Made by a program: the position numbers and the translations under genes
Shown: piece by piece, positions 2,067-10,934 of the stretch
Position numbering within the stretch: the stretch's first letter is position 1
How the letters are laid out: each line of letters starts with the position of its first letter
The notes under the pieces: model-generated
What the model saw: the letters and a program-made list of their open reading frames with translations, nothing else
Told to the model about the DNA's origin: nothing
Databases searched by the model: none
Origin: Rhodospirillales bacterium
Lineage (GTDB): Bacteria > Pseudomonadota > Alphaproteobacteria > Rhodospirillales > 2-02-FULL-58-16
Length of the DNA stretch: 11,485 nt
Direction of reading: 5' to 3'
Assembly (NCBI GenBank): GCA_021775195.1
Contig: JAJFIG010000202.1
Location: 1-11,485, forward strand

Positions 2067-2570
2067 TTATTTCTTGCGGAAGGTGTCCAACGCGATCACC
2101 TCGCCGGTCTTCTTATCATCCTCGGTTGGCATGTCGTAGGGGTCAGCGGCGACATCGTTGGACCCGGCCTCGGGCTCGCTCTGCGCGGCCCCGTCTTCCT
2201 TGTTCGCGGCCAGAGCGTTCACCTTTAACTGCAAGCCGAAATTGACCGACGGATCGGCAAAGGCGGTCACCGCGCTCAGGGGGATGCGCAGGCGTTCGCT
2301 CTTGCCCGCGAATTTCAAGGTGACCAGAAATACGTCCCGGTCCACTTCCAGGTCCTGGAACTGATTCTGCAGAACGATGGTCATCTCGTCCGGGTATTGG
2401 GTGCGAAGATGTTGTGGAATCCTCACCCCGTCCTCGCCGGTGCGGAAGGTGACGTAGAAGTGATGTTCACCGGGAGGACCCTCCGCCGCAACGTACGCCA
2501 GCGTTCGCCGGATGACGCTACGAAGGGCCTCTTCAATCCATTTGTCGTATCGCAGCGGATCTGTCGTCAT
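2067..2570 (-). CDS. sspB: SspB-type ClpXP adaptor (alphaproteobacterial form)
   Basis: Adaptor that binds the tmRNA-encoded tag on stalled-ribosome products and tethers them to the ClpXP protease. The 167-residue protein has the alpha-type SspB layout: a folded N-terminal domain (about 1-122, starting [14 protein letters not shown] and containing HHFYVTF and [10 protein letters not shown]), an acidic low-complexity linker (about 123-155), and the C-terminal peptide [12 protein letters not shown] (156-167), which matches the ClpX-binding tail of the family. No convincing Shine-Dalgarno sequence precedes the ATG at 2570; an out-of-frame ATG sits at 2583. The gene begins about 50 bases after the end of the tmRNA coding piece on the same strand, so tag and adaptor are neighbours. 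Fumarase follows after 65 bases and may be cotranscribed. Confidence 0.93.
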
Positions 2571-2617
2571 GGGAGCCGATCATCAAAAGTGTGCCTTGAA
2601 CCCCGAAGGGCCGTTAA

Positions 2618-2788
2618 GTGGGGGGCTTCTGTTGCCAGGTGCCCCCCGAACCCCGCAATAACAGCCGTTAGGCGGCTACTGCAAATGCCTCGTTATCATT
2701 GGCATTTGTATGTTTGGCCCGATAACGGCGGTACCATGCCGGGCAAAAACCATGCCTTTACCACGCGCGTCGATCCTGTTTCGCCCCC
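2618..2788 (-). ncRNA. ssrA: tmRNA coding piece
   Basis: Begins with acceptor strand GGGGGCG and a D-arm-like segment, then a region that can form pseudoknot PK1: GCCCG (2744-2740) can pair with CGGGC (2721-2717). An A-rich stretch leads to the resume codon GCC (2703-2701), with A at position -4 as is usual. The last Ala codons and the stop sit in a small hairpin AGCCG-CCTAA-CGGCT (2677-2663). The piece ends near hairpin GGGGGGC/GCCCCCC (2647-2641 and 2626-2620) with the 14-base loop ACCTGGCAACAGAA. The exact 3' end is not visible. Confidence 0.82.
2668..2703 (-). other. ssrA: tmRNA tag reading frame (ANDNEAFAVAA, stop TAA)
   Basis: Read on the minus strand from the resume codon, the codons are GCC AAT GAT AAC GAG GCA TTT GCA GTA GCC GCC TAA. 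With the alanine carried by tmRNA, the full tag is AANDNEAFAVAA. The start AANDN and the end AVAA match the alphaproteobacterial tag pattern: AANDN is the region read by SspB and the last residues are read by ClpX. At 12 residues it is two shorter than the Caulobacter tag as I recall it (AANDNFAEEFAVAA). Confidence 0.92.
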
Positions 2789-2830
2789 AAAATGTTGCCC
2801 CGGCCGTGACCCTGGCCGCGGAAAGGATTT
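2789..2830 (-). other. ssrA: Spacer of the permuted tmRNA precursor, removed during maturation
   Basis: These 42 bases lie between the encoded CCA of the acceptor piece and the first G of the coding piece. In the precursor they form the loop that closes the acceptor stem. In this class of tmRNA the loop is cut out by tRNA-type processing (RNase P at the coding-piece 5' end, 3'-end processing at the CCA), which leaves two RNAs held together by pairing. The boundaries follow from the acceptor-stem pairing; processing itself is inferred from the family. Confidence 0.75.
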
Positions 2831-2910
2831 TGGTGGAGGCGCCGGGCACTGCCCCCGGGTCCGCAACGCTTATTCCACACGGCGTTTATCGCCATAGTCG
2901 GTTTCCCGAC
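2831..2910 (-). ncRNA. ssrA: tmRNA acceptor piece
   Basis: This is the part that carries the 3' CCA and receives alanine. From 5' to 3' it shows a hairpin GTCGG-GAAA-CCGAC with a GNRA tetraloop (2910-2897), a second hairpin GGCG-ATAAA-CGCC (2893-2881), the P2 strand GCGTTG (2869-2864), a T-arm with stem CCGGG/CCCGG (2858-2854 and 2846-2842) and 7-base loop GGCAGTG, then the acceptor strand, discriminator A and CCA. The T-loop lacks the TTCGA core of ordinary tRNAs. The 5' end is set by the first hairpin and the promoter position and is uncertain by several bases. Confidence 0.82.
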
Positions 2911-2916
2911 GCTTTC

Positions 2917-2945
2917 AATATAAGGACTGGACCGCCGCTTTGAAA
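2917..2945 (-). promoter_or_regulatory. Candidate promoter of ssrA
   Basis: Minus strand: -10 TATATT (2922-2917) and a weak -35 TTTCAA (2945-2940) with a 17-base spacer. Transcription would start near 2911-2910, exactly where the first hairpin of the acceptor piece begins. The -10 is good and the -35 poor. The position relative to the RNA is the best support. Confidence 0.5.
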
Positions 2946-3096
2946 GGGGAAGCGAAGCCCAAGATGCGGGCAAAAGGGGGCACGAACGGGCACTCCTGGT
3001 TCCGGGTTCCGGAGGGGCTTTGCCCGCCCGCCGGGAAAGGCTAAAGTGCCTGGCGATCCTGCCACGTCACCCGCGATTCCTAGGGGAGAAGAATTC
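2942..3096. promoter_or_regulatory. Intergenic region upstream of thyX, repeat-rich, with a weak promoter
   Basis: Between the divergent ssrA and thyX genes. A weak plus-strand promoter may be TTGCCC (3020-3025) and TAAAGT (3042-3047) with a 16-base spacer. A 9-bp perfect inverted repeat GCGGGCAAA/TTTGCCCGC lies at 2966-2974 and 3019-3027, its right arm over the candidate -35. The direct repeat GGGCAC occurs at 2978 and 2988, one helical turn apart, and GGTTCC occurs twice near 2998-3010. The thyX ribosome site GGGGAGAAG is at 3083-3091. Confidence 0.3.
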
Positions 3097-4035
3097 ATGG
3101 ACCTTACGCCCGAACAACGGGCCGAGATCGACGCCCTGCGCGCCCAGCGCACCGAAACCCGCCGCGCCGTCGCCCCGGCGCTGGAGGAAATCCTTTACGA
3201 ACCCATTCCGGTGCTCGACCACGGCTTCATCCGCGTCATCGACTACATGGGCGACGACGCCGCCATCGTCCAGGCGGCGCGGGTGTCCTACGGCAAGGGT
3301 ACCAAGAAGGCGCAGTCCGACGCCGGCCTCATCGCCTATCTGCTGCGCCACCGCCACACCACGCCCTTCGAGATGTGCGAGATCAAGTACCACGTCAAAC
3401 TGCCCATCTTCGTCGCCCGGCAGTGGATCCGCCACCGCACTGCCAACGTCAACGAGTACTCGGCCCGTTATTCCATCCTTGATAGGGAATACTACGTCCC
3501 CGACCCCGACCAGTTGGGCACCCAGTCGCGCTCCAACCGCCAGGGCCGCGGCGCCGTGCTCGAGGGCGAAGAGGCCGATCACGTGCTTGGCCTGCTGCGC
3601 GCCGACGCCGAACGTTGCTATACCGACTACGAGGTCATGCTCAACGAGGACTCGGACGGCAACAAGCTGGACGAGAACAGGGCCGGGCTTGCCCGCGAGT
3701 TGGCGCGCATGAACCTGACCCTGAACGCCTATACCCAGTGGTACTGGAAGATCGACCTCCACAATCTTCTCCATTTCCTGTCGCTACGCGCCGATCCCCA
3801 TGCCCAGTATGAGATCCGCGTCTATGCCGACGCCATGGTCGAGACCCTCCGCCACTGGCTGCCCATCACCTACGAGGCCTTCGTCAATTACCGCCAGGGC
3901 GGGCTCAGTCTGTCGGCCAAGGGGCTTGCCGTGGTCAAGCGCATGCTCGATGGCGAAGCCGTGACCCAGGAAACCAGCGCCATGAGCAAGCGCGAGTGGC
4001 GCGAACTGATGGAAAGCCTCGGCCGAGAGGCTTAG
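3097..4035 (+). CDS. thyX: Flavin-dependent thymidylate synthase ThyX
   Basis: Makes dTMP from dUMP, using methylene-THF as carbon donor and FAD/NADPH as reductant, and releases THF rather than the dihydrofolate made by ThyA. The 312-residue protein carries the ThyX signature [15 protein letters not shown] (residues 112-126), and [11 protein letters not shown] (221-231), where the family has dUMP-binding residues. HRHTTPFE (85-92) is also typical. It is longer than the roughly 220-residue Thermotoga enzyme and resembles the longer alphaproteobacterial forms, with an N-terminal extension (about 1-40) and an insert around 140-195. The ATG at 3097 has GGGGAGAAG upstream at good spacing, so the in-frame GTG at 3046 is not needed. 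The next gene starts 7 bases after its stop, so the two are probably cotranscribed. Confidence 0.97.
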
Positions 4036-7647: not shown

Positions 7648-7660
7648 GGGCCGCCGCCCT
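7647..7660. terminator. Hairpin between convergent genes
   Basis: AGGGC-CGCC-GCCCT forms a 5-bp stem with a 4-base loop. It spans the last base of the small gene's TGA and part of the mrp stop codon. No T-run follows on either strand, so it would be a weak terminator at best. Confidence 0.25.
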
Positions 7661-8798
7661 ACTGCATGACGATCTTGGGCGCCGTCGCCTCGCGCTCGTC
7701 CAAACCTTTCCTGATCTGTTCCCAGATTTTCCGGGCGATGGCCACGTAGGCCTTGGCGTGGACGCTGGCGGGATCGGAGACGACGATCGGCTGGCCGCTG
7801 TCCGAGGTCTCGCGGATCGCGATGTCCAGGGGAACCTCACCCAGAAAGTCGGTGCCCAGGCGTTCCGCCGTGCGCTTGGCGCCGCCATGGCTGAAGATCT
7901 CCGAGCGTTCGTTGCAGTGAGGGCAGACGAAGTAGCTCATGTTTTCGATGATGCCCAACACCGGCACGTCCACCTGACGGAACATGTTGAGACCCTTGCG
8001 CGCGTCCAGCAGCGCGATGTCCTGGGGCGTCGACACGATCACCGCGCCGGCCAGGGGCACCTGCTGGGCCATGGTCAGCTGGGCGTCGCCCGTTCCCGGC
8101 GGCATGTCGACCACCAGGACGTCGAGCTCGCCCCAGTTGACGTCGCGCATCATCTGCTGCAGCGCCGACATGACCATGGGGCCGCGCCAGATGGTCGGCG
8201 TCTCCTCGTCGACCAGGAAGCCCATGGACATGCACTTGAGGCCGAAGTTCTCCATCGGCTCCAGGCTGCGCCCGTCGACGGAGACCGGCTGCCCGGCGAT
8301 GCCCATCATGCGCGGGATCGAGGGGCCGTAGATGTCGGCGTCCAGCACCCCGACACTGTGCCCGCCCGCCGCCAGGGCCAGGGCCAGATTGACCGCGGTG
8401 GTCGACTTGCCGACGCCGCCCTTGCCCGAGGCCACGGCGATGATCGCCTTGACCCCCGGCATCAGGGCGGGATCCAGTCCCGCCGCTATGCCCGGTCCGC
8501 CCGGAGCCGGGCCCGGACCCGCCGGCGCGCCGCCGTTGCCGCCGCTTCCCGGCGCCCGTTCGGCGGTCAGCACCACCGTTGCCGAGATCACCCCGGGCAG
8601 GTCGAAAACGGTCTTCTCCGCTTCCCTGCGAAGGGGCTCCAGGTGGGGGCCGCGCTCGGGATCGACCTCGATGGAAAAGGCCACATGCCCGTCCTTGACT
8701 TGCAGGCCGGAGACCATGCCCTTGCTGACGATATCCTGGTCTTCGTCGTCGACGCCACCCAGGGCCTCCAGAATTTGTTCTTCGGTGACCTGCGTCAT
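7659..8798 (-). CDS. mrp: Mrp/ApbC-type Fe-S cluster carrier ATPase
   Basis: Binds iron-sulfur clusters and passes them to target proteins, in the cytoplasm; a P-loop NTPase of the Mrp/Nbp35 family. The 379 residues comprise an N-terminal DUF59/MIP18 domain (about 1-80), a Gly/Pro/Ala linker (about 82-108), and the NTPase domain with deviant Walker A SGKGGVGKST (124-133), DADIYGPSIPRMMG (153-166) and DMPPGTGD (231-238). CPHC (292-295) provides the cluster-binding cysteines. The start is ATG 8798, preceded by GGGGAG and AAGG; the frame stays open much further upstream (to 9023), but this would overlap hflK and adds non-family sequence. Its neighbour hflK diverges from it. It may help mature the iron-sulfur fumarase, though nothing links them directly. 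Confidence 0.95.
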   Translation of the reverse strand: MTQVTEEQILEALGGVDDEDQDIVSKGMVSGLQVKDGHVAFSIEVDPERGPHLEPLRREAEKTVFDLPGVISATVVLTAERAPGSGGNGGAPAGPGPAPGGPGIAAGLDPALMPGVKAIIAVASGKGGVGKSTTAVNLALALAAGGHSVGVLDADIYGPSIPRMMGIAGQPVSVDGRSLEPMENFGLKCMSMGFLVDEETPTIWRGPMVMSALQQMMRDVNWGELDVLVVDMPPGTGDAQLTMAQQVPLAGAVIVSTPQDIALLDARKGLNMFRQVDVPVLGIIENMSYFVCPHCNERSEIFSHGGAKRTAERLGTDFLGEVPLDIAIRETSDSGQPIVVSDPASVHAKAYVAIARKIWEQIRKGLDEREATAPKIVMQ

Positions 8799-8973
8799 CC
8801 TTGAAATCTCCCCGTCACTGGCCGATATCATTGGGGCTCGCGCATCGCCTTCACGTTGCGCTGCCGGTGAAGCTGTCCTATAAGGCAAGCCGATCAGATA
8901 TACGACGTAGCGTCGCAAACACAAGATACAAGACCTGATCACCCAGCAGACTTTTTTATGAGGACCTAAATAT
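8799..8973. promoter_or_regulatory. Divergent promoter region between mrp and hflK
   Basis: For hflK (plus) the best pair is TTGCGC (8856-8861) and TATAAG (8879-8884) with a 17-base spacer. For mrp (minus) it is TTGTGT (8924-8919) and TATATC (8902-8897) with a 16-base spacer. A perfect inverted repeat CGACG-TAG-CGTCG (8903-8915) lies inside the mrp spacer and downstream of the hflK start, where a regulator could affect both genes. The hflK ribosome site GAGGA is at 8960-8964. Confidence 0.4.
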
Positions 8974-10056
8974 ATGGCTTGGAATCCACAGGGCGGAGGC
9001 CAGGGGCCATGGGGCCGCGGCACTCCCGGCCCTCAGCCACCGGACATCGAGGAAATCCTGCGCCGCGGCCAGGACAAGTTCAAGCGCTTCCTGCCCGGCG
9101 GCATGGGCACGGCGCGGGCAATCATCCTGGCGATCATCGCTGTCGCCGCGATCTGGCTGGCCAGCGGGCTCTACCGGATCGAATCCGGCCATAAGGGGCT
9201 GGTCTTGCTGTTCGGCAAGAACGTCGCCGAGACCGATCCCGGCCTGCACTGGTTCTTTCCCGGCCCCATCGGCGAGGTCGTGATCCCCAATGTCGAGCGC
9301 TCGCGCCGCGTCGACGTCGGTTTTCGCACCGCCGGCACCTCGACGCGCGCCGGCGCCGTGCGTGATCTGCCCGAGGAAAGCCTGATGCTTACCGGCGATC
9401 AGAACATCGCCGATCTGGATTTCACCGTTCTCTGGAAGGTCAATAACCCGGCCAATTTCGTCTTCAACATCCGCGACCCGGAGACCACCGTGAAGGTGGC
9501 CGCCGAAAGCGCCATGCGCGAAGTCATCGGCCAGACCCCTCTCGAGGACGCGTTGGCCGGCGGCAAGGAAATCATCCAGAACCGCACCCGGGACCTGCTT
9601 CAGACCATCCTCGACGGCTACGGCGCCGGTATCTCCATCGATACCGTGCAGCTTCAGAAGGTCGACCCGCCGGGGGCGGTCATCGACGCCTTCAACGAGG
9701 TCCAGCGCGCCAAACAGGACAAGGAGCGCAAGCTGAACGAGGCCGAGGCCTACCGCAACAAGATCGTCCCCACCGCCCGCGGCGAGGCGGCGCAGATCAC
9801 CCAGAACGCCACCGCCTACAAGGAAAAGGTCACCAAGGAGGCCGAGGGTGAGGCGCAACGCTTCCTGGCCATCTACGAGAGCTTCAAGGCCACCGAGGAC
9901 GTCGCCCGCCAGCGCCTCTACCTGGAGACCATGGAAGAGGTTCTGGGCGGCGCCAGCAAGGTCATCATCGACAGCAAGGGCGGCGCGGGGTCGGGCGTGA
10001 TTCCCTACCTGCCCCTGCCGGAACTCCAGAAACGCAGCGGGAGGGCAGGCAAATGA
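8974..10056 (+). CDS. hflK: HflK, FtsH-associated SPFH membrane protein
   Basis: With HflC it forms a large membrane cage around the FtsH protease and modulates its action on membrane proteins. The 360-residue protein starts with the Gly/Pro-rich HflK N-terminus (MAWNPQGGGQGPWG), then the amphipathic IEEILRRGQDKFKRFLPGG, one membrane segment (about 47-65), and a band-7/SPFH domain from about 66 with VERSRRVDVGF, QNIADLDFTVLWKV and a long coiled-coil-forming helix (about 245-310, rich in Ala, Glu, Arg and Lys). It ends with a short hydrophilic tail. The bulk of the protein should lie in the periplasm. Its TGA overlaps the ATG of hflC (ATGA), so the two are translationally coupled. Start ATG 8974 has GAGGA upstream. 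Confidence 0.97.
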   Translation: MAWNPQGGGQGPWGRGTPGPQPPDIEEILRRGQDKFKRFLPGGMGTARAIILAIIAVAAIWLASGLYRIESGHKGLVLLFGKNVAETDPGLHWFFPGPIGEVVIPNVERSRRVDVGFRTAGTSTRAGAVRDLPEESLMLTGDQNIADLDFTVLWKVNNPANFVFNIRDPETTVKVAAESAMREVIGQTPLEDALAGGKEIIQNRTRDLLQTILDGYGAGISIDTVQLQKVDPPGAVIDAFNEVQRAKQDKERKLNEAEAYRNKIVPTARGEAAQITQNATAYKEKVTKEAEGEAQRFLAIYESFKATEDVARQRLYLETMEEVLGGASKVIIDSKGGAGSGVIPYLPLPELQKRSGRAGK

Positions 10057-10934
10057 GTAAGATCGCCCTAGCAATCGTCGGCGCCATCGTCGTCGCCGCC
10101 GGCGTCGTCGCCTCCAGCGCCCTGTTCACCGTCGACCAGCGGGCCCAGGCACTGGTCATGCAGTTCGGCGAAATCATCAAGACCGTCAACAAGCCGGGAC
10201 TGAACGTGAAGATCCCGTTCGTCCAGAACGTCGTCTACTACGACAAGCGGGTCCTCGACCTCGACCCGCCGGTGGAACAGGTGATCCTGGCCGATCAGAA
10301 GCGCATCAACGTCGATGCCTTCGCCCGCTATCGCATTGTCGATCCCAAGCGGTTTTTCCAGGCGGTGAAAACCGAACTGACCCTTCGCGACCGTTTCGGA
10401 AAGATTCTGAACTCGAGCGTTCGGACCATCCTCGGTCGCCATTCCCTGCCGGCGCTCCTCTCCGAGAACCGCGACGACATCATGGCCACCATCAAGGAAA
10501 GCGTCACCGCCTCGGCCAACAACTTTGGCATTGAGGTGGTCGACGTGCGCATCGGCCGCACCGACCTGCCCGAGGACATTTCCAAGAACGTCTTCGACCG
10601 CATGCGCTCGGAGCGCGAGCGCCAGGCCAACCTTTTGCGCGCCGAAGGGGACGAGGCCAAGCAGCGGGTCACCGCCGACGCCGACCGCCAGAAGACCATC
10701 ATCCTGGCCGAGGCGACCAAGCTGGCGGAGATCCTGCGCGGCGACGGCGACGCGGCGGTGACCCGCATTCTCGGTGATGCTCACCAGCAGGGTAAGGACT
10801 TCTTCGATTTCAATCGCGCGCTGGAGGCCATGCGCAAGGGCCTGAACCCGGACGACACGACCCTGATTCTGTCGCCCGAGGGCAACTTCTTCCGCTTCTT
10901 CGGCGATCCCACCGGCGGCGCCGGAAAGAAGTAG
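10053..10934 (+). CDS. hflC: HflC, FtsH-associated SPFH membrane protein
   Basis: Partner of HflK. The 293-residue protein has an N-terminal membrane anchor (about 4-24), a band-7/SPFH domain starting FTVDQRAQALVMQFGE, and the family segments PGLNVKIPFVQNV, DKRVLDLD and INVDAFARYRI. A long charged helix follows (about 190-240, DRMRSERERQANLLRAEG), then the C-terminal part DFFDFNRALEAMRKGL and LILSPEGNFFRFF, which is typical of HflC. Length is normal. It starts within the last codons of hflK. The usual C-terminal hydrophobic strand is intact. Confidence 0.97.
   Translation: MSKIALAIVGAIVVAAGVVASSALFTVDQRAQALVMQFGEIIKTVNKPGLNVKIPFVQNVVYYDKRVLDLDPPVEQVILADQKRINVDAFARYRIVDPKRFFQAVKTELTLRDRFGKILNSSVRTILGRHSLPALLSENRDDIMATIKESVTASANNFGIEVVDVRIGRTDLPEDISKNVFDRMRSERERQANLLRAEGDEAKQRVTADADRQKTIILAEATKLAEILRGDGDAAVTRILGDAHQQGKDFFDFNRALEAMRKGLNPDDTTLILSPEGNFFRFFGDPTGGAGKK

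Follow-up and report, generated by a model that had tools for sequence, protein, structure and literature searches.

At first sight the DNA between a ThyX-type gene (PF02511) and the gene for an SspB family protein, on a contig of a Rhodospirillales bacterium, is an empty gap, and the question raised by this locus is whether it holds a gene and, if so, how that gene relates to its neighbours. A sequence-only reading of the window, by which we mean the whole 11,485-nt stretch analysed, had proposed that the minus strand at 2618-2910 carries a permuted two-piece tmRNA gene. Consistent with this proposal, the covariance-model and tmRNA-finder scans that it had suggested as a check all match, as evidenced by a hit to Rfam RF01849 (alpha_tmRNA) of 270.1 bits (E 2.9e-78, whole model covered, gathering cut-off 50 bits), a whole-model match to RF04321 (tmRNA_permuted) of 160.2 bits (E 8.2e-33), and a separate ARAGORN call of a permuted tmRNA with the tag ANDNEAFAVAA. 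According to the paper on the tmRNA database (PMC11915505), the base pairs that RF04321 covers are confined to the tRNA domain. Chance is excluded as the source of these three matches, and Rfam and ARAGORN together place a circularly permuted ssrA of alphaproteobacterial type on the minus strand from 2910 to 2617. We are virtually certain that the region is an ordinary two-piece tmRNA gene in the form usual in Alphaproteobacteria.

The gene shares with the alpha_tmRNA family the order of acceptor RNA, spacer and coding RNA, an encoded CCA, the G3.U70 pair, the ANDN start of the tag and a 3' pseudoknot. The permuted two-piece form was reportedly described by Keiler, Shapiro and Williams in 2000 (as cited in PMC3985003), with Caulobacter as the type case. 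In the window the two acceptor strands stand in this permuted order and not at the two ends of one gene, as they do in the one-piece tmRNA (RF00023). No one-piece tmRNA scores over the cut-off in the window's genome, the best match reaching 43.9 bits against a cut-off of 47 and being a tRNA-sized stretch of 76 bases on another contig. SmpB is encoded in the same genome on contig C103 (PF01668, 194.3 bits). A phage search returned a single incomplete hit, spanning 23% of the query at 74.2% identity, in an unannotated record. Passages of the 2025 tmRNA database paper count 11,946 unique permuted sequences (PMC11915505), and the window's gene thus adds one more of a known type.

The details on which the sequence-only reading had relied are all present on the minus strand. 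The encoded CCA end is found as ACCA at 2834-2831, and the 7-bp acceptor stem between distant parts, including G3.U70, forms between CGCCUCC (2841-2835) and GGGGGCG (2788-2782). The acceptor RNA, with a predicted length of 80 nt (2831-2910; supported by RF01849, ARAGORN and covariation), comprises a 5' hairpin, connector strands, the T arm, the 3' acceptor strand and the encoded CCA. It is separated by a 42-nt spacer (2830-2789), lying between CCA and G1 and expected to be excised, from a coding RNA with a predicted length of 172 nt to the end of conservation (2788-2617, where the RF01849 match ends). The latter consists of the 5' acceptor strand, connector strands, a PK1 region, the tag frame and a 3' pseudoknot; ARAGORN reads the frame, ANDNEAFAVAA followed by a stop codon, at 2703-2668, with a resume codon and a short tag that ends in hydrophobic residues. 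The pseudoknot, which is PK2-like, occupies 2655-2619 and is built from the stems GGGU/ACCU and GGGGGG/CCCCCC. Folded by free energy as a single strand, with a method that cannot form a pseudoknot, the tail (2571-2667) reached a z-score of -0.83, and 39 of 200 shuffles did as well.

A promoter scan of 2300-3100 found one promoter-like site, where 0.3 would be expected from shuffled sequence. Its -10 element, TATATT (minus strand, 2917-2922), falls within the 5' segment that RF01849 leaves unpaired, and a -35-like hexamer, TTCAAA (minus strand, 2939-2944), found by the consensus scan as a consensus match only, precedes it by 16 nt. In 56 loci, the window included, a 45-nt segment ahead of the CCA was searched for the best match to TATATT; the hexamer was exact in 41 and had at most one mismatch in 54, and in 39 the distance from its end to the CCA end was 86 nt. 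Position 2949 is where the RF01849 match starts, and the likely promoter falls within the first 39 positions of the model, none of which is paired, so that gene starts taken from RF01849 would be about 39 nt too early. We took the 5' end of the acceptor RNA to lie 7 nt after the -10 element. The lengths of roughly 80 and 170 bases given in the sequence-only reading agree with the predicted 80 and 172 nt, and the median length of the coding RNA across 55 loci is 171 nt. Relative to the RF01849 model, the window's coding RNA is shorter after the tag, where most of model positions 278-325 are missing. Allowing for this missing part, the predicted sizes agree with the bands of 82 and 204 nt given for the tmRNA pieces of Sinorhizobium meliloti in a 2007 survey (PMC2245857).

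Gene callers could place proteins here instead, and open frames of 166, 77 and 71 amino acids do exist (2397-2897 and 2710-2943 on the plus strand and 2758-2973 on the minus strand, respectively); if the region encoded one of these, its likeness to an RNA gene would be incidental. The sequence-only reading had called the first two frames spurious, and they exist in a mechanical sense, with neither they nor the third matching any Pfam family at E 0.01. Against a protein is also the spacer that the frames cross, which ranges from 6 to 85 nt among relatives, and pairing that is kept through compensatory changes. For the latter, paired cells were counted in 55 loci (54 distinct rows, with one further locus, L056, excluded because a contig end cuts it) and compared with 200 shuffles, in an alignment that was not fitted to the structure; the structure itself was taken from the window together with its Rfam match, and relatedness among the rows inflates the counts. 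The connector helices gave the clearest signal, with 326/378 cells paired in P2b (7/7 pairs changed on both sides, shuffle maximum 283) and 265/270 in P2a (5/5 changed on both sides, maximum 244). Two short helices beside the T arm were paired in 159/162 and 162/162 cells (maxima 149 and 148), and the 5' hairpin of the acceptor RNA in 259/270 (4/5 pairs changed on both sides, maximum 246). The T stem was fully paired (270/270, 1/5 changed on both sides, maximum 268). Both stems of the 3' pseudoknot covary as well, GGGU/ACCU being paired in 203/216 cells (maximum 192) and GGGGGG/CCCCCC in 313/324 (maximum 299). The counts for PK1 are mixed, its first stem (192/216) equalling the shuffle mean of 192.6, and its second stem lying weakly above the shuffle maximum of 138 under one pairing option (140/151) and at the shuffle mean of 144.4 under the other (144/162). 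The putative helices that would join the acceptor and coding RNAs show compensatory changes across the 55 loci. The covariance score and this covariation refute the protein-coding reading in practice, and we regard it as vanishingly improbable. The remark that the RNA gene is easily missed was too strong, since both standard RNA tools detect it at once.

Conservation among relatives further supports a two-piece tmRNA gene. A search of 60 genomes with RF01849, the window's own included, found the gene in 55, that is, in 54 of 59 relatives. Among the five misses, the sspB contig of G041 ends within ssrA (RF01849 133.8 bits, cut by the contig end) and a contig of G031 ends within sspB, while genome searches of G007, G016 and G036 found a match to neither gene. 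Of 57 loci fetched, one was dropped as a repeat (L057, of L021), leaving 56 with the window. All 56 have ACCA, G3.U70 and the permuted order, their spacers are 6 to 85 nt long (median 37), and their tags begin with ANDN, 24 of them reading exactly ANDNEAFAVAA. Loss of the acceptor stem or of the tag in relatives, which the sequence-only reading had named as the outcome that would count against it, is not seen: the acceptor stem is paired in 378/378 cells, with 2/7 pairs changed on both sides (shuffle maximum 376), and a permuted gene with a tag is present at every locus. ANDNEAFAVAA is not among the tags listed by the version of ARAGORN we ran and is printed nowhere in the literature searched.

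The locus could also be read as a permuted tmRNA gene that has decayed or lost its function. One relative, G011, does carry a second copy, truncated where its contig ends, but we found no support for such a reading of the window's gene. It is the sole RF01849 match in its genome (77.84% complete) and scores among the highest across the 60 genomes, and nothing is broken in its acceptor stem, CCA, promoter, tag frame or 3' pseudoknot. With one intact copy, we reject this reading as highly improbable. In G011 itself, the two permuted tmRNA genes (L021 and L056, the latter being the cut copy) have spacers of 76 and 52 nt and the same tag, and represent either a duplication or contamination. A separate observation concerns L055, from a reduced genome of 0.9 Mb (G050), in which the spacer is 6 nt, the tag is the unusual ANDNIAVTEKILCAA, and sspB lies on another contig.

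For an intact two-piece tmRNA gene of this kind, a course of action can be proposed in which the sequence, its covariation and conservation, and the SmpB and SspB genes come from the present analysis, and transcription, cleavage, charging, tagging and degradation would follow the known family. A single transcript would start just after the -10 element at 2917, and cleavage at its CCA (2831) and ahead of G1 (2788) would release the 80-nt acceptor RNA and the 172-nt coding RNA, with the 42-nt spacer discarded. The acceptor stem and the connector helix would hold the two RNAs together, and G3.U70 would direct charging with alanine. With SmpB, the RNA would enter stalled ribosomes and add A followed by ANDNEAFAVAA, and the tag would then be handed to ClpXP, for which the SspB of the neighbouring gene is the probable adaptor. 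This course is the one established for the two-piece tmRNA family (PMC3985003).

The sspB gene (minus strand, 2067-2570) encodes 167 amino acids and matches PF04386 with E 1.4e-43 (score 149.1, cut-off 27 bits). SspB is a family of tag-binding ClpXP adaptors, and the SspB adaptor of Alphaproteobacteria is said to have been described by Lessner, Venters and Keiler in 2007 (cited in PMC3985003). The window's protein matches positions 2-153 of the 156 in the PF04386 profile, and its tag binding is putative. Its start codon lies 46 nt downstream of the tmRNA gene on the same strand, a fumarase gene (PF05681, PF05683) follows next, and the ThyX-type gene lies upstream of the tmRNA gene and is divergent. 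Open frames further along, at 7659-10934, are by eye what we take to be an Mrp/ApbC-type ATPase (minus strand) diverging from an HflK-HflC pair (plus strand). The position of sspB directly downstream, like the promoter, the 3' pseudoknot and an order with one-piece tmRNA described below, goes beyond what the sequence-only reading had claimed.

This neighbourhood is widely conserved. In 51 of the 56 loci, the window included, an sspB start lies 73 to 577 nt past the stop of the tag frame on the same strand; of the five loci with no nearby sspB, one ends with its contig (L056) and four (L042, L043, L052, L055) have an SspB match elsewhere in the genome. Approached from the protein, GTDB contigs yielded 214 SspB relatives, and 47 of the best 80 of these 214 have a permuted tmRNA at most 1.5 kb upstream on the same strand, among them proteins of Bradyrhizobium, Bosea, Mesorhizobium and Paramagnetospirillum. 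One more of these best 80 has a tmRNA 2.3 kb upstream and one has too little sequence, and ARAGORN found no upstream tmRNA for the remaining 31, of which 12 are titled Acidocella. Across the class, 114 genomes were sampled, the window's among them; RF01849 exceeds its cut-off in 108 of these and SspB is present in 107. Among the 104 other genomes with both, 77 have SspB at most 1 kb downstream of ssrA on the same strand, with a median gap between the two matches of 109 nt (37 to 850). The 27 unlinked genomes comprise 11 in which SspB sits at another place on the contig that carries ssrA and 16 in which the two are on different contigs, a separation that in some of these 16 may reflect a broken assembly. 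The 2007 survey describes the genes on either side of alphaproteobacterial tmRNA as conserved, both of them, and a functional link as uncertain (PMC2245857), and the neighbourhood of ssrA and sspB is therefore at least partly known; the genes are not named in the main-text passages of that survey. An explicit statement of the linkage was not found in the literature searched, in which SspBalpha is not mentioned either; most subscription papers lie outside its coverage, and this is no proof of novelty.

The closeness of the two genes raises the possibility that the tmRNA transcript reads through into sspB and that the coding RNA is cut from a longer ssrA-sspB transcript, which is an addition to the two-piece tmRNA explanation and not a contradiction of it. 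The 46-nt gap, in which our scan detects no terminator-like site, and the conserved linkage are in keeping with such a transcript, and across 51 loci the gap to sspB tends to be longer where the sequence past the pseudoknot is richer in T (Spearman 0.40, p 0.003, relatedness not corrected). On the other side, sspB could have a promoter of its own, although the scan of 2300-3100, which covers one promoter type only, found none for it, and the linkage is absent in the 27 unlinked class genomes. Weighing these points, we consider read-through a serious possibility, rated slightly below an even chance.

Returning to the two-piece tmRNA and its tag, the genomes of the class in which one partner is missing bear on how far the tag start follows SspB. 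Three genomes of the class sample carry a permuted ssrA and no SspB match (G084, G097 and G141), and their tags are ANDNELALAA, AKSDYAEYALAA and ANESYAIAA. Conversely, two have SspB and no RF01849 match, namely G111, where the permuted gene is present and cut by a contig end (128.7 bits), and G078, where the upstream stretch read holds a tRNA only. Neither is over cut-off in G101, G105, G126 and G131. Of these, G126 has a one-piece tmRNA (152.9 bits), G105 has an uncertain one-piece hit where a contig ends (scored at 73.2 bits in one search and at 24.7 in another), and G101 (47.1 bits) and G131 (39.8 bits) have only tRNA-sized matches to the one-piece model. Across 14 genomes of the order to which G126 belongs, a one-piece tmRNA (RF00023) is found in 10, an SspB match in none, and a permuted tmRNA in none at E 1e-8. 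The one-piece tmRNA of that order has the same expected function as the window's gene, but its gene is not permuted. Four of its tags were read (L259, L265, L266 and L267: ADDNFEYAMAA, GNSYDYALAA, ANKTSNVVAFQPRAAAPMAMAA and AKKSNVIAFRPAAMPAMAMAA), and none begins with ANDN.

From 103 SspB-bearing class loci, a set to which the window's genome and G030 do not belong, ARAGORN called no tmRNA in 20, leaving 83 with a called tag. An ANDN start is found in 74 of these 83, against one of the three permuted loci without SspB (Fisher p 0.04, relatedness not corrected). The nine SspB-bearing loci with other tag starts argue against a strict rule tying SspB to ANDN. The comparison suggests that SspB keeps ANDN in place, the genomes without SspB being few, partly from one order and small. 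More broadly, we put forward as speculative, and on balance unlikely, that permuted ssrA and sspB form a conserved two-gene unit in which SspB holds ANDN and tag starts drift where it is missing, the order without SspB having the one-piece gene, and that permutation, the linkage to sspB and the ANDN tag originated as one package, perhaps with read-through from ssrA into sspB at short gaps such as the 46 nt here.

What is most worth following, besides the order with a one-piece gene and no SspB, is that an RNA which would write a degradation tag stands directly upstream of a gene for a protein of the type that reads it. The pair offers a natural system in which to ask if expression and evolution of the writer are coupled to those of the reader, and if the permutation of the RNA came with its adaptor.
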